A DNA stretch of 64,000 bases, from positions 223,213 through 287,212 of the forward strand of contig JAHEXY010000005.1 in NCBI GenBank assembly GCA_023251875.1. Direction: 5' to 3'. Shown here piece after piece: positions 4,173 to 16,102 of this stretch (positions are counted from its first letter, which is position 1; each line of letters opens with the position of its first letter). Both the position numbers and the translations under genes were made by a program. This DNA comes from Bacteroidota bacterium (GTDB lineage Bacteria; Bacteroidota; Bacteroidia; JAHEXY01). The notes under the pieces were generated by a model that was not told where the DNA came from, searched no databases, and saw nothing but the letters and a program-made list of their open reading frames with translations.

Positions 4173-4922
4173 TTAAATTTTTTGCAACCATTGCATTAAT
4201 CCATCTTTTTTTCGAGTTGCAACAGGCACTTTTGATCCATTTGAAAGATTAAGAGAAGTTCCATCCGATTTTTCAAAACTACTTACATATTGCATGTTTA
4301 CAAGATGTGATTTATGTATGCGAAGAAAATTAAACTCCGATAGTAGTTCTTCATATTCTTTTAATGTTTTGGTTACTACAATTTGTTCTCCATTTTGTAA
4401 ATGAAATAGGGTATAGGTATCAGCTGCTTCACATCTAACAATATCCGTAACCTTTAGTACATGAATTTTATCAGCAGTAGATAGGATAATTTTTTTTGAA
4501 GAAAGATAATCCGTACTCACATTTTCTGATAAAGCCCTTACACTTGCCTGTTGGTTTATTTGATTAAAAACAGTTTGTTCGCATTTATTTACGGCTGAAA
4601 CTAATTCAGCAGGATCAATAGGTTTTAAAATATAATCGATAGCACTAAAACGAAAAGCTTTAATGGCATAATTATCATACGCTGTTGTAAATATTATTTT
4701 AAAATAAATTTCATCAAGTCTGTTTAACAAATCAAAGCCGGTTGCATTTTGCAAATGCACATCTAAAAAAACTAATTCAGGTTGGTATTGTTGAATAATT
4801 GAAATACCATCTTCAACATTTTCTGCTTCAGCAAGAATAGTTACTTGCGGACATTTTTTTTCTAAGAGGCTTCTTAGCGTTTTTCTTGAATCTGCTTGAT
4901 CTTCTATAATTATTGCATTCAT
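4173..4922 (-). CDS. LytTR-family response regulator (copy 1)
   Basis: Cytoplasmic two-component regulator of 249 residues, a usual length. The receiver domain (about 1-120) shows the acidic pair E7-D8, phospho-acceptor D54 in LVFLDVHL, TTAYD near residue 82 and YILKPIDP. The LytTR DNA-binding domain (about 140-249) carries FLRIHKSHLVNMQYV. It lies 133 bp downstream of the kinase at 5056-7173, its probable partner, and is closely similar to the regulator at 12087-12839. Targets are unknown; the nearby exported proteins are candidates only by position. Confidence 0.93.
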   Translation of the reverse strand: MNAIIIEDQADSRKTLRSLLEKKCPQVTILAEAENVEDGISIIQQYQPELVFLDVHLQNATGFDLLNRLDEIYFKIIFTTAYDNYAIKAFRFSAIDYILKPIDPAELVSAVNKCEQTVFNQINQQASVRALSENVSTDYLSSKKIILSTADKIHVLKVTDIVRCEAADTYTLFHLQNGEQIVVTKTLKEYEELLSEFNFLRIHKSHLVNMQYVSSFEKSDGTSLNLSNGSKVPVATRKKDGLMQWLQKI

Positions 4923-4926
4923 TTCT

Positions 4927-5060
4927 TTCGTTGTTTGTTGATCGTTGTTTGTTGTTCGTAAGAACCTCTTTCATTTTATCATTTTCAAAATAAAAATAAT
5001 TTACTAAGATTCCGTGGAAGCACCTTTTCTAACAAAAATAACCAACAATGAACAACTAAT
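4927..5060. repeat. Inverted A/C-rich versus T/G-rich tracts between kinase and regulator
   Basis: The + strand reads TCGTTGTTTGTTGATCGTTG onward at 4927-4957 and AACAAAAATAACCAACAATG onward at 5031-5060, roughly complementary low-complexity tracts built from the same short word. The kinase stop codon (5056-5058) lies inside the second tract. A similar pair lies between gldB and gldC (43541-43628). Confidence 0.5.
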
Positions 5061-7173
5061 TATATAAATATTGAAGCGGAAAATTCAACACTCCTTTTGT
5101 TCCTAAGGCATTTCCATCATTATCCTTTAAATCCAACACATCTACTTTTATTTGTTGTTTGTTTTCTTCATTAAAAATATGAATACGTTCTTCTGTAATT
5201 AATAAACCAACTGATTTATGAATACTGTTTAATTGCTGTTTTTGCAACAATGCTTTTTCTCTACCAATACCGTCATCTTCTATTTCAATTTGTATATATT
5301 CCCCTAACGATTTTATTCGTAGTATAATATTTCCTTTTGATGATTTATTGGCAATACCATGTACAATTGCATTTTCGATAAACGGTTGAATAAGCATAGG
5401 GGGAATACCAATGTTTTCAATATCTATTAAGGGGTCTATTTCAATTTTAAAATTGAATTTATTGCCGTAACTCAATTGTTGCAATTCTAAATAATATTTG
5501 AGCATGTTCACTTCATTTTCAAGAGAAATTATTTTTGTTCTTGAATTATCCAGGATCAAACGCATGAGCTTGGCAAATTTTGCCAATAATCTTGTAGCCT
5601 CTTCAGTATTATTGGAAGAAATAAAACTTTGAATGGAATTTAAAGCATTAAAAATAAAATGAGGATTCATTTGCGAACGTAATGCTTTTTGCTCTAGCTC
5701 CATTAATTTGTTTTGCAATTCAAGTTTGTTTTTTTCAGTTTCCACCCTTAATCTCAGCTGATTTCGCTTTGAGATAATAATTAACAATGAGATGATAATG
5801 ATTAGCAATAGTACTCCCGAAAACGCAGTGTAGATAAATATATTTTTTGTTTTTAATTGCTCATTTTTTTCTTTGAGGCTCCAATCTCGGTCTTTTAATT
5901 CTTTTTCTTTTTTTTCAGTTTCATATTTTACATTCATATCTGCAAAAACTTTTTCTTTTTCTTGCTTGTTAATTTCTCCATTTATAGAGTCATACATTAA
6001 TTGGTATCGGTAAGCCTCTTTATAATTATTGCTTTTTGAATATACACTTGCTAAAATCGAATACGAGTCGCCTAAATCATATGTACTATTTATTTGTTTA
6101 AATATTTCTATGCTTTTCAACAACATTAATGTTGAACTTGGTTTATCTCCCATTTTAAAATATATATTCCCCAAATTTTGAAAAGAAAGTCCTTTATACA
6201 AATCCATTTTTAGTTTTTGGTTTATTTGAAGTGCTTTATTTTCGTATTCAATTGCATTTTCATAGTCTCCAATATTTGTATAAATATTGGCTAAGTCTGA
6301 TAAACAAACCATACTTCGCATATCAAAATTAATAGCCTGATAGATAGACAGTGCTTTTAATGCATATTGTTCTGCTTCTTTATAATTATGTTTTAGATTA
6401 CTGGTTTTAGATAATATTTCATAGCAATTGCCCTCATTGGCTTTGTCGCCCAATTGCTCAAATACCTTTAATGCCTTTAATTGATATACCATTGCTAAAT
6501 CAACTTCTCCCTTACCCGATAAAAGATCAGCAATAAATTTATTAGCAAGAGCAATCTTAGATAAATTATTAATTTGCTCTGCTATTTTTAATGCTTTTAA
6601 ATAATAAACATACGATTTATTATAATCGGAGTAATAACTGTATACATTACCCAATTGAGTATATGTATTTATATACCCTACACTATCTTTAATTTGTTTT
6701 TGATAATATAATGCTAACCAATATTCGGCTTCGGCAGAATCAACATTGCTAACATAAAAGTGTGCATTACCTAAAGCAGTATGCAATCTAGCAACATACA
6801 TGATATCATTATTTTCTTCCGCAATTCTTATACACTCGGAAAATATTTTTTTTGCCGAATCAATGGATTCTTTTTGCACATAATAAATACCAATATTATA
6901 TTTTGATCTTAATATTCCCCATGAAAAATGTAAAGAATCAGCCAATTGGTATGCCTTTGTACTCACGTCAAAAAACGAATCTAATTGAGTATTTTGATAT
7001 TTGTTACCCAAATAGATATAGTTTTTTACTTTATTAGTATCATTCGGAGAAAAAGCTATTACCTTTTTCAGACTATCAATTTTATGATTGGATTGAGAAT
7101 AAGCAACAAGAGAAAAGAGTAAAAAGACAAGACGAATAAAAATACTCACAAAATGTTTTTTATTTGGTATCAT
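5056..7173 (-). CDS. TPR-containing LytS-type sensor histidine kinase (HK1)
   Basis: Inner-membrane sensor of 705 residues. It has an N-terminal signal or anchor segment (about 1-26), a periplasmic array of TPR repeats (about 60-400), a short coiled region, one transmembrane helix (about 441-463), then the His_kinase motif QMNPHFIFNALNSIQ with the phospho-accepting His near residue 501, and an ATPase lid with ENAIVHG (near 599) and DDGIGR (near 631). This is the PF06580 architecture that normally pairs with LytTR regulators. The gene begins 3 bp after the stop of HK2 (7177-9273) and is followed by a LytTR gene, giving a HK2-HK1-RR transcript. Its sensor half is more diverged from the other two kinases than its catalytic half, so its stimulus may differ. 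The stimulus is unknown. Confidence 0.92.
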   Translation of the reverse strand: MIPNKKHFVSIFIRLVFLLFSLVAYSQSNHKIDSLKKVIAFSPNDTNKVKNYIYLGNKYQNTQLDSFFDVSTKAYQLADSLHFSWGILRSKYNIGIYYVQKESIDSAKKIFSECIRIAEENNDIMYVARLHTALGNAHFYVSNVDSAEAEYWLALYYQKQIKDSVGYINTYTQLGNVYSYYSDYNKSYVYYLKALKIAEQINNLSKIALANKFIADLLSGKGEVDLAMVYQLKALKVFEQLGDKANEGNCYEILSKTSNLKHNYKEAEQYALKALSIYQAINFDMRSMVCLSDLANIYTNIGDYENAIEYENKALQINQKLKMDLYKGLSFQNLGNIYFKMGDKPSSTLMLLKSIEIFKQINSTYDLGDSYSILASVYSKSNNYKEAYRYQLMYDSINGEINKQEKEKVFADMNVKYETEKKEKELKDRDWSLKEKNEQLKTKNIFIYTAFSGVLLLIIIISLLIIISKRNQLRLRVETEKNKLELQNKLMELEQKALRSQMNPHFIFNALNSIQSFISSNNTEEATRLLAKFAKLMRLILDNSRTKIISLENEVNMLKYYLELQQLSYGNKFNFKIEIDPLIDIENIGIPPMLIQPFIENAIVHGIANKSSKGNIILRIKSLGEYIQIEIEDDGIGREKALLQKQQLNSIHKSVGLLITEERIHIFNEENKQQIKVDVLDLKDNDGNALGTKGVLNFPLQYLYN

Positions 7174-7176
7174 TTT

Positions 7177-9273
7177 TTAGTTATATAAATGCTGCATTGG
7201 AAATTGCAATATTCCTTTTGTTCCGGTTGAATTGCCTTTTTCATCTTTTAAATCCAATACATCAACTTTTATTTGTTGCTGATGTTCTTCATTAAATATG
7301 TCTATGCGTTCTTTTGTTATTAGCAAACCAACCGACTTATGAATGGTATCTAACTGCTTTTTCTGTATCAGCGCTCTTTCTCTTCCAACCCCATCATCTT
7401 CTATTTCTATTTGTAAATATTCTCCTAACAATTTTATTCTAAGAATAATATTACCGCCTTCAACTTTATTAGCTATGCCATGCACAATAGCATTTTCAAC
7501 AAAAGGTTGGATAAGCATAGGAGGAATGCCAATATTTTCAACATCAATTTCAGCATCTAACTCTATCTTAAAATTAAATTTATTGGTATAACTTAATTGT
7601 TGCAATTCTAAATAGTATTGCAACATTTTTATTTCATTTTCGAGAGGGATAATTTTTTCACGAGAATTATCCAATATCAAACGCATCAATTTGGCAAATT
7701 TTGCAAGTAATGCAGTTGCCTCTTCAGAATCATTGGTAGCAATATATCCCTGAATAGAATTTAGAGCGTTAAAAATAAAATGAGGGTTCATTTGTGAACG
7801 AAGCGCTTTTTGCTCTAAGTCCATTAATTTATTTTTAAATTCTATTTTTTTTCTTTCTTCATCTGATTTTAATTTTAATTTATTTCGTCTATTGATCATC
7901 ACAATTAAAGTGATGATAACCACCAATAAGCCAACACCGGAAAATGCAGAATAAATAATAATGCCCTGTTTTTCTAGTTGTGCATTTTGTTCATTTAAAT
8001 TAGCCTTTTGTAAGGCTAACTCTTTGTCTTTTTTTTCGGTTTCGTATTTTGCTTGTACTTCAATCATTCCTTTCTTATTCTTTTCCGTGAATAAACTATC
8101 CTTAAGATGATCTTCCAGTATACGGTAATCATAAGCCTCTTTATAATCAGTACTTAAATAAAAAGCCTTTGAAAGTAATGAATCAGCAACTAGTATATAA
8201 TCTACCCTACCTATAGTCTGTGCTAAAGCAATACATTTTTTCAAATTTTCAATGGCTAAAACAATTCTATTTTGGTTTATATATATACTCCCTAAATTGA
8301 GAAGAGAATTAATTTGCTCATTCTTATCACCTATTTTTTCATTAAACTGAATTGCCATTTTTTCATATTTTTCAGCTTGATCATTTTCGTTCTTTTGTAA
8401 ATAAATATTAGCAAGGGAAGAATAAATAATAGCATTTCGTTGTTCAACGCCCGCTAATTTACAAAGAGACAATTCCTTTAACATTGCCTGTTCTGCTTTG
8501 TTTAAATCCTTAAAGCCATTTAAATAAATAATCGAAAGTGTTTCATAACCTAATGCAGCATCAAAATTACCTCCTAAACGTTCATTTATTGCAATTGACT
8601 TCAAATCATATTTTAATGCCAAATTATAAAAGCCAAGTTCACAATATGGCCTAGATATTGCCCAATAACTATATGCAATCTCTGAAGAGTCTTTTCTTAA
8701 TTCTGCAATTTTTAGAGCAAGAGAATAATAAGATACCGCTTTCATATATTTACCTTGATCATCATACACTCTTCCCATACCTATATATGAATATATAAGC
8801 CCAAGAGAATCATGATTAAATTCTTGGACTTGAACAGATTTGGTCATATAAAACATCCCACTATCTACATTACCCATATTTAAATATTCACCTGCAATAT
8901 TTCCATATAATTTACCTGCAATTTTTGAATTGTTATTTGATGACAAATATGATAAAGCCATTTTACTAATATCTATTGCTTTATTAGGATTCCCTTTTTG
9001 TTCATTATAAAATGAAAGATAGTATAAGGATGAAGCTATACCCTTATTAAACTCAATTTTCCTTGATAGTTTTTCTGCTTGACTAGCAAATTTTTCTAAA
9101 CTATCTAAATTGGTTGAATAGTAATTATTACAAATTTTTATAAGTGTGTTTACTTTATTTGTATCCTCTTTTGAGAAAGACAACACTTTATATAAACTAT
9201 CTGTTTTTGATCTATTTTGACTATAGGATATTATCGAAACAATACTAAACAGAAATAATAATTTTAACCTCAT
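7177..9273 (-). CDS. TPR-containing LytS-type sensor histidine kinase (HK2)
   Basis: Paralogue of HK1 and especially of HK3 (12839-14911), with which it shares an almost identical signal peptide (MRLKLLFLFS). It has 698 residues: signal peptide, periplasmic TPRs, transmembrane helix near 439-462, NPHFIFNALNSIQ near 496, then the ATPase motifs ENAIVHG and DDGVGR. It is the first gene of the HK2-HK1-RR series. A putative -7 box (TAAATTTG, 9323-9330, minus) lies 50 bp upstream, overlapping a fossil of the oxidoreductase gene. Two kinases feeding one downstream regulator suggests heterodimers or signal integration, which is inference. Confidence 0.92.
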   Translation of the reverse strand: MRLKLLFLFSIVSIISYSQNRSKTDSLYKVLSFSKEDTNKVNTLIKICNNYYSTNLDSLEKFASQAEKLSRKIEFNKGIASSLYYLSFYNEQKGNPNKAIDISKMALSYLSSNNNSKIAGKLYGNIAGEYLNMGNVDSGMFYMTKSVQVQEFNHDSLGLIYSYIGMGRVYDDQGKYMKAVSYYSLALKIAELRKDSSEIAYSYWAISRPYCELGFYNLALKYDLKSIAINERLGGNFDAALGYETLSIIYLNGFKDLNKAEQAMLKELSLCKLAGVEQRNAIIYSSLANIYLQKNENDQAEKYEKMAIQFNEKIGDKNEQINSLLNLGSIYINQNRIVLAIENLKKCIALAQTIGRVDYILVADSLLSKAFYLSTDYKEAYDYRILEDHLKDSLFTEKNKKGMIEVQAKYETEKKDKELALQKANLNEQNAQLEKQGIIIYSAFSGVGLLVVIITLIVMINRRNKLKLKSDEERKKIEFKNKLMDLEQKALRSQMNPHFIFNALNSIQGYIATNDSEEATALLAKFAKLMRLILDNSREKIIPLENEIKMLQYYLELQQLSYTNKFNFKIELDAEIDVENIGIPPMLIQPFVENAIVHGIANKVEGGNIILRIKLLGEYLQIEIEDDGVGRERALIQKKQLDTIHKSVGLLITKERIDIFNEEHQQQIKVDVLDLKDEKGNSTGTKGILQFPMQHLYN

Positions 9274-9327
9274 TGCAAAGCAGAAGTATTAGAAATTAGA
9301 ATCGAGTTAAACTAAGGGTGTGCAAAT

Positions 9328-9390
9328 TTAAGCCTTATTATTCTTATTTACATACCTAAAGGCATACACTTCTGGTAATAAATCAGCAGT
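9328..9390 (-). pseudogene. Fossil 3' end of the FAD oxidoreductase gene
   Basis: Read on the minus strand these bases encode ADLLPEVYAFRYVNKNNKA followed by TAA. The intact oxidoreductase at 14963-16102 ends ADLLPEVYAFRHVKENNKK and TAA. The nucleotide match continues with the shared TAAATTTG box beyond the stop. No upstream part of the gene remains here. The fragment sits before HK2 exactly as the intact gene sits before HK3, so it was carried along when the kinase was duplicated. Confidence 0.85.
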
Positions 9391-9483
9391 ATAGGGGTTG
9401 GGAATAATAGAAAAACAATGGGGGGGTAAATAACTAATATTTAGAATATTACTGAATAATAAGAAATTTACCTTTGTGGATTT

Positions 9484-10350
9484 CTATTGTGCATATATTC
9501 CGGCACAATACGAATTCACTATTATTTTTAAATTGTCGGCATTAATTGTTATCCAATGAATAGGATTGCCATTATTGTCTAAAATGGGATTTCCTTTATC
9601 GTCAACTACACATATTCTATCGCCTATTGCTGCTTCATGCCATTCAACACTTGATGTTAAAGAACTCGTATTTGCAGCAAGGGAATAATTTTCAATAATA
9701 TCTCCATTATTATTCTTTACAACAATATTGGAATTTAAGGGGCATTGATTTTCTAATTGATAATAGATTTTACTTGCTTTGTTTTGCTCTACAAATTTAT
9801 CAAGAGAACTATTATTTAAACCTCCATCTTTAAGCATTCCATTTTCTATCATTTCTTGTATTAAATCTGCATAACTTCCTTTAGAAAAATATCGTACTTG
9901 ACTATTTGTGCCTTCAAATTTCAACCAAAATAGAAATCGATGGCCTTGCAACAATTGCAATGCGGTTGAACTGGTTCTTACATTTGCTAATTCTAAATCA
10001 AATAATTTTTGATTGGAAAGAGAAAATAATTTATCCTTTTTTTTAGGTTGTTGTAAGTATAAATAGTGGTATTTATCCTCTAGATATGTTCCATTAGATG
10101 ATGTGCAAAGGCTTGCAAGAGAATCTATATTTACTTTATGAGGAATTGATTTTAGCAAATAAGCCGGTTTACCACAATAGTATACTGTATCCATAAATAT
10201 TTCCGCACTCTTTTTGTCGGAAGATTTTTGAATAATTTTCATTCTTCTTTTTTCATCTTTAGTTTGTGCTAACAGTATGTTTATGTTTGTAAATAGCAAT
10301 ATGCTTAAAATTACTAAAATTGTAAATCTTGAAATAAATTGTGTTTTCAT
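9484..10350 (-). CDS. Exported protein of unknown function
   Basis: 288 residues starting with a hydrophobic signal peptide (about 1-29, ending LLAQ), then a charged KDEKRRMK segment. I recognise no domain. Visible features are a mixed alpha/beta composition, a few cysteines, and a C-terminal part with repeated Asp/Asn/Gly turns (VVDDKGNPILDNNGNP, near residues 249-264). It begins 25 bp after the delta-60 repeat gene and is probably cotranscribed with it from the promoter at 11983-12013. Both lie inside the duplicated kinase cluster. No T9SS sorting domain is visible, so it may stay in the periplasm. Confidence 0.7.
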   Translation of the reverse strand: MKTQFISRFTILVILSILLFTNINILLAQTKDEKRRMKIIQKSSDKKSAEIFMDTVYYCGKPAYLLKSIPHKVNIDSLASLCTSSNGTYLEDKYHYLYLQQPKKKDKLFSLSNQKLFDLELANVRTSSTALQLLQGHRFLFWLKFEGTNSQVRYFSKGSYADLIQEMIENGMLKDGGLNNSSLDKFVEQNKASKIYYQLENQCPLNSNIVVKNNNGDIIENYSLAANTSSLTSSVEWHEAAIGDRICVVDDKGNPILDNNGNPIHWITINADNLKIIVNSYCAGIYAQ

Positions 10351-10375: not shown

Positions 10376-11938
10376 TTAATTTTTTACTATAACTCTTGTT
10401 GCTTTTCGCTTTTCTTTACCCTCTATCTTTAACGTATAAATTCCTTTAGGGATATTGAAAAGTGAGAGTTCTGTTAGATTACTTAAAATTTCTTTTTGTA
10501 GTATTTGTCGTCCTAACATATCTACAATAGTAATTGTATTTATTGAATTCGTGAATGAACTGCAATTCAGATTTAGTATATCACTAAAGGGATTAGGATA
10601 TACGTTAAGTATAGAGTAAAATTCAAGATCTGGAATACTTGAAACAATAGCATCTCCGGTATATCTGAGCAAGGCAAAGTCCCATTTTGTTCCATTAAAA
10701 GAACTCCCTGCCATTAAAATTTTACCATCTGGTTGAATAATTACAGACGTATTAAATTCATCATTCCCATTTCCAATGTCAGTAGTGATAATACCATTTG
10801 AGCCAAAGCTGTTATCCAGATTGCCAATAGAATCATAACGTATTAAGGCAAAATCATTATCGCTACCATTATTTGAATAACCACCTACTAGTATTTTTCC
10901 GTTTGATTGAACTGCCACTGAAAAACAATAATCATGTATTGTTCCTATTTCTGTAGTTACAATTCCTCCTATTCCAAATGTATTATCGAGGCTGCCATTG
11001 CTATTATATCGTAATAAACTAAAATCATATTTTGATCCATTAAATACTCCTCCTGTTACTAATATCTTCCCGTCTGGCTGAAGCGCAACTCCATAAGCTT
11101 GCTCATTATAATTATTAATGCTAGTAATTAATTTACCTGCAGAGCCAAACATTGTATCTAAACTACCATCGGCATTATAGCGAGCCATGGCCATATCATC
11201 GTCACTGCCATTATTTGAAATGCCAACTACAATAATTTTTCCATCAGGCTGAATGGTCATAAAATTGCCCCAGTCGTTATTATTGCCAAAATCTGTAATA
11301 ACAATGCCATTTAAACCAAAAGTATTATCGGCATTTCCGGATGTATCATAACGCAACAAGGTAAAATCTTTATCAGAGCCATTATGCGAATAACCAAGCG
11401 TTAAAATTTTTTGGTCATTTTGTAAGGCAATTGAAGAACAAAAATTATGCCCTCCACTTCCTATTGCTTTGGTAATAATGCCGTTATTCCCAAAAGAATT
11501 GTCTAAACTGCCATCATCATTATAACGTAATAGTGCAAAGTTCCCTCCTAAGCTATCATTCAAATTAGCTCCAATCAAAATTTTTCCATTCGCTTGGATT
11601 GCAATTCCTCTACCATCACTATTAATTCCAACATTTGTTGTTACAATTCCACTTGAACCAAAAGTTTGATCTAAGTCACCATTAGAATTATATCGTACCA
11701 ATGCAATTCCTTTTTGACTACTATTATAATAAGACTGTCCGGTAACTAAAATTTTTCCATCTGTAGAGAGTAAAATCTCATAAGGATAGTCAGCTTTTCC
11801 TATTGAGGTAGTTACTTTTCCCTTTAGGCCAAATGTGCTATCTAAGATTCCTGCTTGAGCTAAACTTATGGTTATTGAGAGAATCGTAAACGGTATAATT
11901 AAAAAAATGCGCCTAGTCCACTTTAGCTTTGTTCTCAT
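10376..11938 (-). CDS. Delta-60 repeat protein with T9SS type A sorting domain
   Basis: 520 residues: signal peptide (about 1-28, ending SLAQ), seven delta-60 repeats of 50-60 residues recognisable by LD.TFG..G...T (DSTFGLKGKVTT, DQTFGSSGIVTT and so on) alternating with PDGKILV.G and LLRY segments, then a type A sorting domain (LNVYPNPFSDIL, about 440-520). Repeats of this kind form beta-propeller or solenoid surfaces. Exported and probably attached to the cell surface by T9SS. First gene of a pair with 9484-10350; a good Bacteroidota promoter lies 45 bp upstream. Confidence 0.88.
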   Translation of the reverse strand: MRTKLKWTRRIFLIIPFTILSITISLAQAGILDSTFGLKGKVTTSIGKADYPYEILLSTDGKILVTGQSYYNSSQKGIALVRYNSNGDLDQTFGSSGIVTTNVGINSDGRGIAIQANGKILIGANLNDSLGGNFALLRYNDDGSLDNSFGNNGIITKAIGSGGHNFCSSIALQNDQKILTLGYSHNGSDKDFTLLRYDTSGNADNTFGLNGIVITDFGNNNDWGNFMTIQPDGKIIVVGISNNGSDDDMAMARYNADGSLDTMFGSAGKLITSINNYNEQAYGVALQPDGKILVTGGVFNGSKYDFSLLRYNSNGSLDNTFGIGGIVTTEIGTIHDYCFSVAVQSNGKILVGGYSNNGSDNDFALIRYDSIGNLDNSFGSNGIITTDIGNGNDEFNTSVIIQPDGKILMAGSSFNGTKWDFALLRYTGDAIVSSIPDLEFYSILNVYPNPFSDILNLNCSSFTNSINTITIVDMLGRQILQKEILSNLTELSLFNIPKGIYTLKIEGKEKRKATRVIVKN

Positions 11939-12086: not shown

Positions 12087-12839
12087 TTAGAACTTATGTA
12101 GCCACTGTAAAACCTCATCTTTTTTTCTAACTGCCACAGGAATTTTTGAACCATTAGATAGTATAACATAACTACCACTTAATTTTTCAAATCCATTCAC
12201 ATATTGCATATTTACAAGATGTGATTTATGGATACGTAAAAAATTATACTCTGAAAGCAGATCTTCATATTCTTTGAGAATTTTTGTTATCAACAGTTGC
12301 TCGCCATTTTTTAAGTAAAATAAAGTATAGGTATTCATGGCTTCACATCTTATTATATCTGCTACTTTTAAAATATGAATTTTTCCACTCGAAGAAAGTA
12401 CAATCTTTTTTTGTGGCAGGTAATCAGTAATTACATTTTCTGACAATGTTTTTACAATGTCTTGTTGATTGGTAATGTTTATATTAATTTGTTCACATCT
12501 TGTAACAGCTTCCTTTAATTCCGTTGGATCAATAGGTTTTAAAATGTAATCAATAGCACTAAATTTAAATGCCTTAATGGCATAATTATCATAGGCGGTT
12601 GTAAAAATGATTTTAAAATTTATTTGTCCAATTTTATTCAGCAAATCAAAACCGGTTGCATCTTTTAAATGTACATCGAGAAAAATGAGTTCAGGTTTAA
12701 ACTCATGAATAATTTTAATTCCCTGTTCTACACTTTCTGCTTCTGCCTCAATAATTACTTGGGGGCAATTCTTTTCCAATAGAATTCTTAGCTTTTTTCT
12801 TGATTCGGCTTGATCCTCTATAATAACAGCTCTAATCAT
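12087..12839 (-). CDS. LytTR-family response regulator (copy 2)
   Basis: 250 residues. Receiver domain with E8-D9, phospho-acceptor D55 (LIFLDVHL), TTAYDNYAIKAF and YILKPIDP; C-terminal LytTR DNA-binding domain with FLRIHKSHLVNMQYV. Closely similar along its whole length to the regulator at 4173-4922. The start codon overlaps the stop of HK3 by one base (TAATG), so translation is probably coupled and HK3 is its partner. Similar DNA-binding halves suggest that the two regulators may bind related sites. Confidence 0.93.
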   Translation of the reverse strand: MIRAVIIEDQAESRKKLRILLEKNCPQVIIEAEAESVEQGIKIIHEFKPELIFLDVHLKDATGFDLLNKIGQINFKIIFTTAYDNYAIKAFKFSAIDYILKPIDPTELKEAVTRCEQININITNQQDIVKTLSENVITDYLPQKKIVLSSSGKIHILKVADIIRCEAMNTYTLFYLKNGEQLLITKILKEYEDLLSEYNFLRIHKSHLVNMQYVNGFEKLSGSYVILSNGSKIPVAVRKKDEVLQWLHKF

Positions 12840-14911
12840 TAATTGTATAAATGTTGTAATGGCAACTGCAAAACCCCTTTTGTTCCTTTGGCATTTCCAC
12901 TCTTATCTTTTAAATCAAGAATGTCAATTTTAATTTGTTGGTTATTTTCTTGGTTGTAGATATCTATTCGTTGACGAGTGATAAGCAAGCCAACAGATTT
13001 ATGAATACTGTCTAATTGTTTCTTTTGTAGTAATGTTTTTTCACGACCAATACCATCATCTTCTATTTCTATTTGCAAATACTCTCCAGCCTGTTTAACT
13101 CTAAGAATAATGTTTCCACTATTTTCTTTATTGGCAATACCATGTACAATAGCATTTTCAACAAAGGGTTGAATAAGCATTGAAGGAATACCGGTATTTT
13201 CAACATCAATTGTTGCATCAATTTCTATTTGAAAAGTAAACTTATTGCTATAGCTTATTTGTTGCAACTCCAAATAATATTGTAACATTTTAATTTCGTT
13301 TTCTAGCGGAATAAATTTTACTCTTGAATGCTCAAGAATCAATCGCATGAGTTTGCCAAATTTAGCAAGCAATAAGCTTGCTTGATCAGCATCATGCATG
13401 ACCATAAAATCCTGAATAGAATTTAACACATTAAAAATAAAGTGTGGATTCATTTGAGAACGCAAAGCTTGTTGTTCAACATCCATTAATTTATTTTTAA
13501 ACTCTAATTTTTTCTTTAGTTTTTCTCTTCTATTAATTGTTACAACTAATAAAACAATTATTATCAATAATACTACTCCCAATAAAGAAAAATATACAAT
13601 ACTATTTTGCCTTTCTATTTTAGCATTTTTCTCATTTAAATCAGCTTTTTGTAATGCCAATTCTTTGTCTTTTTTTTCTGTTTGGTATTTTGCATCAAGT
13701 TCCGCAATAGTATTTTTACTTTTTTCATTTAAAAGACTATCATTGAGTTGATCTGACAAAACACAATATTTGTATGCATTTTCATAATCTCCATTAAGAG
13801 AATATGCTTTAGCAATAGAATGAAAAGCAACTTGTAAACGACTAGGAGTATTTATTGATTTAGCAATTGCAATAGACTCTAACAATTTATTAATTGCTAA
13901 AGGAATTTTATTTAACTGAATATATATATCACCTAGATTAGTTAAAGAACAAGTTTCTTCTTCTTTATCTCCAATTTCTTTATTTAATAAATAAGCTTTT
14001 GTTTCATATTTTTCTGCTTTTGAAAGATCCCCTCGTTTATTATAAACTCTTGCAAGAGTAGAATAAGTTAAAGCAATATAACTTTTAACCCCAGTTTTTT
14101 GGTATAACTCTAAAGCCCTTAATCCTGCTTTTTCTGCCTGTTCTAAATTTATAATTCCTCCGGTATAGATATCTGCAAGTGCTATATAACTGGCTGCTTC
14201 CTCAATGTCATTTCCCAAGCGTTCATATATCTCAATAGATTTAAGATCATTTTTTAAAGCCAATTGAGGCATATCGAGTGAAATATACGTTCTAGCTATT
14301 GCATGATAATTACTAGCAATATGGTTAGAGTCTTTTATAGATTCAGCTAATGAAAGGGAACGAAGAAAAAACATCATCGCATTACGGTAGTCTCCTTTGG
14401 TATCATATACTATCCCAACATTAGTATTTGCAATTATAAGTCCAAGTGTATCGTTAAGCAATTCTCTTTGTTTAATAGTTTTATTAAAATACAAGAATGC
14501 ACTATCAAGTTGGCCATAATTATTATAGGTCGAAGCCATTCCTCCTGTAATTTTTGAAATAATTTTTGCATCAGCAGGTGTTGATAGATTTAGTAGCCCC
14601 TTTTTGTATAATTCTATTGCTTTATCATAATTTCCATTTAAAGCATAGTGCGTTGCTATATAATAAATAGAATTTGCCACTCCTCGTGAATAGTTCAGTT
14701 TTTTCGATATAGCAAGTGCCTCAGAAGCATACTTATCCACACTATCAATATTTATATTAAAATAGTCATGGCATATTTGCAATAAGGTATTTACTCTGTT
14801 CGTATCTATTTTAGATTCCGCTAAAACTTTAAAAGGGCTATCAATCTCTTTATTTTGAGAATACGAAATAGTAGAAACGACACTAAACAGAAATAGTAAT
14901 TTTAACCTCAT
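12839..14911 (-). CDS. TPR-containing LytS-type sensor histidine kinase (HK3)
   Basis: 690 residues: signal peptide nearly identical to that of HK2, TPR array in the periplasm, transmembrane helix near 435-458, NPHFIFNVLNSIQ with the putative phospho-His near 487, ENAIVHG and DDGIGR ATPase motifs. It forms a translationally coupled pair with the LytTR gene at 12087-12839. It lies 51 bp downstream of the FAD oxidoreductase gene; a -7-like TAAATTTG (14958-14965) overlaps the stop codon of that gene, so it may have its own promoter. This HK-RR pair next to the intact oxidoreductase probably represents the ancestral arrangement. Confidence 0.92.
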   Translation of the reverse strand: MRLKLLFLFSVVSTISYSQNKEIDSPFKVLAESKIDTNRVNTLLQICHDYFNINIDSVDKYASEALAISKKLNYSRGVANSIYYIATHYALNGNYDKAIELYKKGLLNLSTPADAKIISKITGGMASTYNNYGQLDSAFLYFNKTIKQRELLNDTLGLIIANTNVGIVYDTKGDYRNAMMFFLRSLSLAESIKDSNHIASNYHAIARTYISLDMPQLALKNDLKSIEIYERLGNDIEEAASYIALADIYTGGIINLEQAEKAGLRALELYQKTGVKSYIALTYSTLARVYNKRGDLSKAEKYETKAYLLNKEIGDKEEETCSLTNLGDIYIQLNKIPLAINKLLESIAIAKSINTPSRLQVAFHSIAKAYSLNGDYENAYKYCVLSDQLNDSLLNEKSKNTIAELDAKYQTEKKDKELALQKADLNEKNAKIERQNSIVYFSLLGVVLLIIIVLLVVTINRREKLKKKLEFKNKLMDVEQQALRSQMNPHFIFNVLNSIQDFMVMHDADQASLLLAKFGKLMRLILEHSRVKFIPLENEIKMLQYYLELQQISYSNKFTFQIEIDATIDVENTGIPSMLIQPFVENAIVHGIANKENSGNIILRVKQAGEYLQIEIEDDGIGREKTLLQKKQLDSIHKSVGLLITRQRIDIYNQENNQQIKIDILDLKDKSGNAKGTKGVLQLPLQHLYN

Positions 14912-14962
14912 TATTTTTAAGGGGTTATTGAAATTGCAATCATGGTAAGAGGGTATACAAAT

Positions 14963-16102
14963 TTACTTCTTATTATTTTCTTTTACATGCCTAAAGGCAT
15001 ACACTTCGGGCAATAAATCAGCATTATTTAAAAGATGGTTTGTAAAATGTTCAGCAAAATAAGGTGCAAGCATTACACCTTTTGTTCCCATGCCATTAAA
15101 AATGCCAATACTAGCATTTTGAGGATGCAAGCCCATTAATGGCCGCCTATCTTTTACTGTTGGGCGTATACCGGAAAATTGACTTGTAACTTCAATATCT
15201 ACATTTAAAACTTTTTTCAATTTTGATAGCAATTCTTCTTTTCCTTTTTCAGTTGGGGTAAAACTTAAATCATCCCAACTATAAGTTGAACCAATAATAA
15301 ATTCATCATTTCCTATGGGAGAAATATTTACACCAGAACTTATTATATAATCTTCCGGAAGTTTTATTTCGTGTTGTCTTTGCTCCCTTCCCTTTGGAGG
15401 GCAAAAGTCCAGTGGACTTTTGAGCCAGTTCGTGTGTGGCAGGGGATGGGCTTTTAATAATTCTCCTTTAGCCAACACAAAAGGCAAATCATTAAAAAAA
15501 GGATTATTATTCAAGGCATAATATCCTTCGCAAAAAATTATTTTTTTTGCTGAAACCCCTTTCCATTTTACTTCACCATCTTCAAAAATAATTTCCTCAT
15601 AATTCAACCTTTCTTCTCGCAATAATTTTTTCAATTTCAAATAATTCCTAAATGCATTTAGCAATAGATGCAGATTTACACTTCCTGCGTTTTTTACACG
15701 ACCATAACCATAAGGGGCATGAATTAGAGGGCTATAATCTTCTACTATTTCATCGTATAAATAATTCCAATAAGCTTCCTCTATACATTTGTTTTGCCAC
15801 AATTTTTTTTCTTGTTCCGAAGCAAAAATTCTAAGTATATCTTTTTTATCCAAAAAATGAATATTTAACAGCTGTTCTAGTTCCGTATAATCACGTATCA
15901 ATTGAGGAAGTAATTTATCTACCATCCATGCCTTGGTAAAACGTTTAAAAATAATGGGGGAATACATACCTCCACCAATTGCCAATGAAGTAGATGAAAA
16001 TGACTGATCAACAACCAATATTTTTTTATGGTGTTTTAACAAGGCATTCGATAGCATTGTGCCTGCTATACCCTGACCTACAATTATATAATCATAATGC
16101 AT
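14963..16102 (-). CDS. FAD-dependent amine/amino-acid oxidoreductase (DAO family)
   Basis: 379 residues with the N-terminal dinucleotide-binding motif YIIVGQGIAGTML and the C-terminal DAO signature (GIRPTVKDRRPLMG, then FNGMGTKGVMLAP). Members oxidise C-N bonds with FAD, for example glycine/D-amino acids or the tRNA-modifying MnmC type; the substrate here cannot be told. It is a soluble cytoplasmic enzyme. Residues about 215-245 (HPLPHTNWLKSPLDFCPPKG and following) are encoded by a GC-rich palindromic element inserted in frame (see 15381-15451). Divergent from dxs. Its last 20 codons are duplicated as a fossil at 9328-9390. Confidence 0.85.
   Translation of the reverse strand: MHYDYIIVGQGIAGTMLSNALLKHHKKILVVDQSFSSTSLAIGGGMYSPIIFKRFTKAWMVDKLLPQLIRDYTELEQLLNIHFLDKKDILRIFASEQEKKLWQNKCIEEAYWNYLYDEIVEDYSPLIHAPYGYGRVKNAGSVNLHLLLNAFRNYLKLKKLLREERLNYEEIIFEDGEVKWKGVSAKKIIFCEGYYALNNNPFFNDLPFVLAKGELLKAHPLPHTNWLKSPLDFCPPKGREQRQHEIKLPEDYIISSGVNISPIGNDEFIIGSTYSWDDLSFTPTEKGKEELLSKLKKVLNVDIEVTSQFSGIRPTVKDRRPLMGLHPQNASIGIFNGMGTKGVMLAPYFAEHFTNHLLNNADLLPEVYAFRHVKENNKK
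15381..15451. repeat. Palindromic repeat element inside the oxidoreductase gene
   Basis: A GC-rich block within otherwise AT-rich coding DNA. It holds the perfect palindrome CAAAAGTCCAGTGGACTTTTG (15402-15422: two 10-base arms round one base) flanked by CTCCCTTCCCTTTGGAGGG-like and CAGGGGATGGG sequence. It resembles the intergenic elements at 19837-19870, 40211-40250 and 41690-41725, and shares CAAAAGTCC with the element in the GH18 gene (27141-27170). Confidence 0.7.

Follow-up and report, generated by a model that had tools for sequence, protein, structure and literature searches.

The kinase locus and the oxidoreductase tail copy

The window, a stretch of 64,000 nucleotides, lies on contig C7; the genome, of 4.8 Mb, is the sole member of its order in the comparison set. 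The genes and features considered here (Table 1) all lie on the minus strand. In the order of transcription they are an intact oxidoreductase, the kinase HK3, the regulator RR3, a delta-60 gene, a gene for a 288-aa protein, a copy of the oxidoreductase tail, the kinases HK2 and HK1 and the regulator RR1. HK1, HK2 and HK3 each combine TPR, His_kinase and HATPase domains in Pfam, and homologues of the oxidoreductase are present in 44 of 60 genomes, its own genome included.

Table 1. Positions of the genes and sequence features in the window
Feature	Coordinates	Strand	Basis or remark
Intact FAD-dependent oxidoreductase (DAO, PF01266)	14963..16102	-	Pfam; parent of the tail copy
HK3 -7 promoter box TAAATTTG; its first bases are the TAA stop of the oxidoreductase	14958..14965	-	
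HK3, TPR/LytS kinase, sister of HK2	12839..14911	-	Pfam and trees
RR3, Response_reg and LytTR regulator, overlapping the HK3 stop	12087..12839	-	Pfam
Delta-60/DUF5122 beta-propeller protein with Por secretion tail	10376..11938	-	Pfam
288-aa protein, downstream of the delta-60 gene	9484..10350	-	Pfam: no match
Copy of the oxidoreductase 3' end and stop, 60 nt; probable HK2 promoter/operator region	9328..9387	-	
Best-preserved block: candidate -33 region with a putative operator upstream of it	9351..9387	-	
HK2 -7 promoter box TAAATTTG; its first bases are the TAA stop of the remnant	9323..9330	-	
Presumed HK2 5' UTR, diverged from its HK3 counterpart	9274..9322	-	
HK2, signal peptide, TPR sensor and LytS-type kinase (His_kinase PF06580)	7177..9273	-	Pfam
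HK1, older paralogue, beginning 3 nt past the HK2 stop	5056..7173	-	Pfam and tree
RR1, Response_reg and LytTR regulator	4173..4922	-	Pfam

The original prediction placed the last residues and the stop of the oxidoreductase at 9328-9390. Alignment confirms this and tightens it to 9328-9387, where 51 of 60 nt, stop included, are identical to the end of the intact gene (14963-15022, minus strand). The peptides of copy and parent, ADLLPEVYAFRYVNKNNKA and ADLLPEVYAFRHVKENNKK, both run to the same terminal TAA, and six codons of the copy are altered, two of them synonymously. Aligned at the nucleotide level, as had been proposed, the two kinase regions are contiguous: tail, leader and HK2 match tail, leader and HK3 in one unbroken alignment of 2.2 kb (E 5e-168) with its left edge at 9387/9388. 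Searched against all 4.8 Mb of the genome, a 78-nt stretch gives an E value of 3.7e-18, and a 26-mer of the tail has two occurrences and no more when up to three mismatches are allowed, the reversed control giving no match. The tail match is therefore not a chance one, being the end of a 2.2 kb alignment with a significant genome-wide E value and a two-copy 26-mer.

The homology ends sharply at this left edge. No oxidoreductase homology was found further upstream in 9388-9483, where alignment scores are no better than those of shuffles, and a stretch of decayed oxidoreductase sequence upstream of 9388 was rejected, as none is detectable. For the right junction, the segments before the tail, after RR3 and after RR1 were compared and have no mutual homology. 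The TAG stop of the 288-aa gene is in frame with the tail copy across 32 open codons (9388-9486, minus strand), and read-through of this one TAG would append the tail to the 288-aa protein; an open stretch of this length has a chance probability of about 0.16 by composition and is probably accidental. A third site, on contig C17 (18547-18582; about 1500-1540 in locus L102), is 86% identical over 36 nt to the tail and -7 region (E 7e-5). This site closes a penicillin-binding-protein-like gene, with another FAD/NAD oxidoreductase-like gene immediately downstream, and is possibly a similar arrangement of stop codon and promoter, or a chance match in A+T-rich DNA.

Paralogy of the kinases and regulators

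HK2 and HK3 are 57% identical in protein sequence, compared with 48% for HK1 and HK2 and 43% for HK1 and HK3. Trees place HK2 and HK3 as sisters for the full length (support 100/97), the kinase core (96/92) and the sensor (98/96), with HK1 branching next outside the pair and a kinase of contig C5 outside all three. The signal peptide that the original prediction regarded as common to HK2 and HK3 is indeed shared (18 of 20 aa, 83% of nt). All 13 same-class loci examined contain a single such kinase followed by its regulator; downstream of the pair, four of them show an additional match to a regulator fragment. A duplication in which the 3' end of the oxidoreductase was copied along with the kinase is well supported by the sequence, because the alignment is contiguous, HK2 and HK3 are sisters and single kinase-regulator pairs are found in 13 of 13 same-class loci. 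The 60-nt match is not isolated, and the kinases flanking it are closer to each other than to distant homologues. This part of the original prediction stands. The claim that the edge marks where the duplication began is not supported, since a second full oxidoreductase gene later deleted down to its promoter would leave an identical edge.

The further proposal of one event spanning kinase and regulator is not borne out: HK1 is older, no regulator belongs to HK2 itself, and the divergence of RR1 and RR3, which are 70% identical and sisters at 99/100, fits the split of HK1 and HK3 at least as well as that of HK2 and HK3. The kinase-core identity predicted from RR1 and RR3 is 66%, nearer to HK1/HK3 (71%) than to HK2/HK3 (75%), with a spread among relatives too wide to decide. 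Since HK1 is the oldest branch, a single duplication of tail, kinase and regulator needs an ancestral HK-HK1-RR array followed by the loss of one HK1. An alternative history is an older duplication of a kinase-regulator pair and then a duplication of tail and kinase inserted upstream of HK1. Site sharing hinted that HK2 might be a chimera of the HK3 sensor and the HK1 core, an origin rejected on the core-only tree, which keeps HK2 with HK3 (96/92); the chimera-like sharing is attributed to unequal rates on HK3 and HK1. Branches are longer for the HK3 core than for the HK2 core (0.22 against 0.086) and for RR3 than for RR1 (0.29 against 0.15), and HK3 and RR3 could have diverged together, insulating the two systems.

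No oxidoreductase is found near the kinase in the 13 same-class kinase loci and no such kinase in 20 oxidoreductase neighbourhoods, and a scan of genome contigs for close relatives found distant kinases only. As far as shown by the genomes compared, all of them distant relatives, the three-kinase array and its link with the oxidoreductase are lineage-specific. The nearest paralogous cluster (contig C5; 4561-11007 in locus L118) encodes a LytTR regulator, 51% identical to RR1, as well as a TPR/LytS kinase. Genes for apparently secreted proteins or lipoproteins separate kinase from regulator there, resembling the secreted-protein genes between the kinase units of the window.

Promoter box and conservation of the tail

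Primary promoters of Bacteroidetes have the -33/-7 elements TTTG/TANNTTTG (PMC6847099), and the -7 consensus is also given in PMC9723704. The box TAAATTTG is situated 49 nt before the ATG of HK2 and 46 nt before that of HK3, and in both copies its first three bases are the TAA stop codon, so that both kinases have a TAnnTTTG box at a plausible distance from the start codon. The 155 upstream regions in 464 kb of the genome contain TAnnTTTG 58 times, where 17.8 occurrences are expected and the reversed motif has 18, and a TTG upstream of the box peaks at a spacing of 20 (10 of 56 boxes). Neither copy has TTTG or TTG about 20 nt upstream; both read ATG-N20-TAAATTTG, and the -33 element is the weaker one in this genome generally. 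A scan of the cluster located -7 boxes before the oxidoreductase, HK3, the delta-60 gene (its own box, TACTTTTG, 44 nt before the ATG), HK2 and RR1, and none before RR3, DUF and HK1, each of which follows tightly on the gene upstream of it. This distribution suggests four transcription units: the oxidoreductase alone, HK3-RR3, delta-60-DUF and HK2-HK1, the last perhaps with RR1. A search for a structured RNA gave no Rfam match, and a terminator or a sigma-70-type promoter was sought on the minus strand and none was found.

Conservation between the two copies is uneven. Silent sites of HK2 and HK3 are near saturation, with dS about 1.47 (NG86) and 42 of 109 fourfold sites (39%) identical against 34% expected from composition, whereas the tail is 85% and the adjacent 5' UTR 57% identical. 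The UTR value comes from a leader alignment with one gap that is continuous with both flanks; when gaps were cheap the leader scored 35/46, a level that shuffled sequences also reach. By segment, the upstream block with the -33 position has 34/37 identical bases, the spacer 14/20, the -7 box 8/8 and the 5' UTR 26/46. With segment boundaries drawn after the alignment had been viewed, upstream block and box together differ from the UTR at p=6.6e-5 (Fisher) and the whole tail at p=0.0018. The probability of at least 51 of 60 identities is 2.7e-13 at a neutral identity of 39% and 1.5e-8 at 50%, in tests that are coarse, with 60 nt and two sequences. Codons for the same amino acid are identical at 13 of 15 positions in the tail and 212 of 369 in the kinases (p=0.019). 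The block of the intact copy (14986-15022, minus strand) also contains a 6-bp dyad, ATGCCT-TT-AGGCAT, which recurs in the HK2 copy with a single change in one arm.

A general protein constraint does not account for this pattern of DNA conservation. Across 20 relatives of the oxidoreductase, E and R are the sole invariant residues of the tail, and neither YAF nor the C-terminal extension is common to them; and the HK2 copy is under no oxidoreductase constraint because no oxidoreductase remains there. A pseudogene fragment should decay at the neutral rate, and the tail, at 85% against 39% for fourfold sites and 57% for the UTR, has not done so. To describe the tail as a fossil, if an inert relic is meant, is not supported: the sequence is much better preserved than synonymous sites and 5' UTR and carries a -7 box.

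Origin of the tail copy and comparison with known systems

The tail copy is probably the promoter/operator of HK2, retained by selection after the duplication. The promoter of HK3 would span the 3' end of the oxidoreductase, with the TAA stop opening the -7 box and the upstream element lying in the last codons. Given an HK3 promoter inside the end of the oxidoreductase, the duplicated unit of the HK2/HK3 ancestor would have included the oxidoreductase tail, and the rest of that gene, missing from the HK2 copy, was either never copied or deleted. Selection on the promoter/operator would then have held the 60-nt tail at 85% while 5' UTR and silent sites diverged far. The tail most likely drives the operon HK2-HK1, possibly with RR1, and the LytTR regulators may themselves control it. 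Promoter activity, operator and autoregulation are inferred from a sequence in which the duplication, its sharp edge, the uneven conservation and the presence and position of the -7 box are directly seen. Further copies of the upstream block were sought in the genome and only two weak matches with three mismatches were found, comparable to the reversed control; without other genome copies of the block, no regulon supports the operator. A private two-site operator, through which the paralogous RR1 and RR3 control both kinase operons, is an unlikely, speculative extension. If it were true, a coding piece of an enzyme would have turned into a regulatory switch that is conserved at two sites and connects the duplicated signalling systems.

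Other origins of the conserved tail can be weighed against the same evidence. Contiguous, sharply bounded homology and the sisterhood of HK2 and HK3 would also follow if the tail were the inert by-product of a recent tandem duplication that started inside the oxidoreductase and is too young to have decayed. With silent sites near saturation and the 5' UTR at 57%, however, an unconstrained 60-mer should not stay at 85%, and such an origin is highly improbable. The tail might instead only look young, as a result of gene conversion that homogenised an old duplication from the oxidoreductase tail through the kinase signal peptide. The first ten kinase codons are unusually alike (8 of 9 same-amino-acid codons identical against 212/369, p=0.055) and identity falls past the signal peptide, but a single conversion tract should cover the 5' UTR, which at 57% lies between two better-kept blocks. 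Conversion is on balance a rather improbable source of the whole pattern, though at the 5' end it could add to part of the excess identity of the tail. Since then the tail would still have been more constrained than the UTR, and retention of a promoter would apply regardless.

A somewhat better, though still doubtful, proposal concerns the origin of the edge only and is compatible with promoter retention: the whole unit of oxidoreductase and kinase, perhaps with the regulator, would have been copied entire, the second oxidoreductase being lost afterwards by deletion or by replacement with the delta-60/DUF segment. Those two genes occupy its place, and the left edge falls where the conserved promoter block ends, as it should if selection had fixed the edge. 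Against it, 9388-9483 retains no more trace of an oxidoreductase, and one extra event is required.

Selective retention of the HK2 promoter would amount to a tidy, though fairly ordinary, instance of genome evolution. It would illustrate how a duplicated bacterial gene keeps its expression: where the promoter lies inside a neighbour, some of that neighbour has to be duplicated and retained as well. Before an apparent gene fossil is called a neutral breakpoint marker, it should be examined for a promoter role.

In relation to primary sigma promoters of Bacteroidetes, both copies of TAAATTTG agree with TANNTTTG and with its refined form TAHHTTTG, and the genome has the same motif enrichment and N20 spacing to TTG; the differences are a -33 element of ATG rather than TTG or TTTG and a box that shares bases with the stop codon of the gene before it. 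With LytS/LytT-like systems (His_kinase PF06580 and LytTR PF04397, with TPR sensors) the locus has in common the domains and the adjacency of kinase and regulator seen in the 13 same-class loci, whereas three kinases and two regulators interleaved with secreted-protein genes replace the one kinase-regulator pair. Tandem duplicates may keep a truncated neighbouring gene at the junction. Here, likewise, a partial copy of the flanking gene lies upstream of the duplicated kinase, but in contrast to such remnants it appears to be constrained and contains a promoter box.
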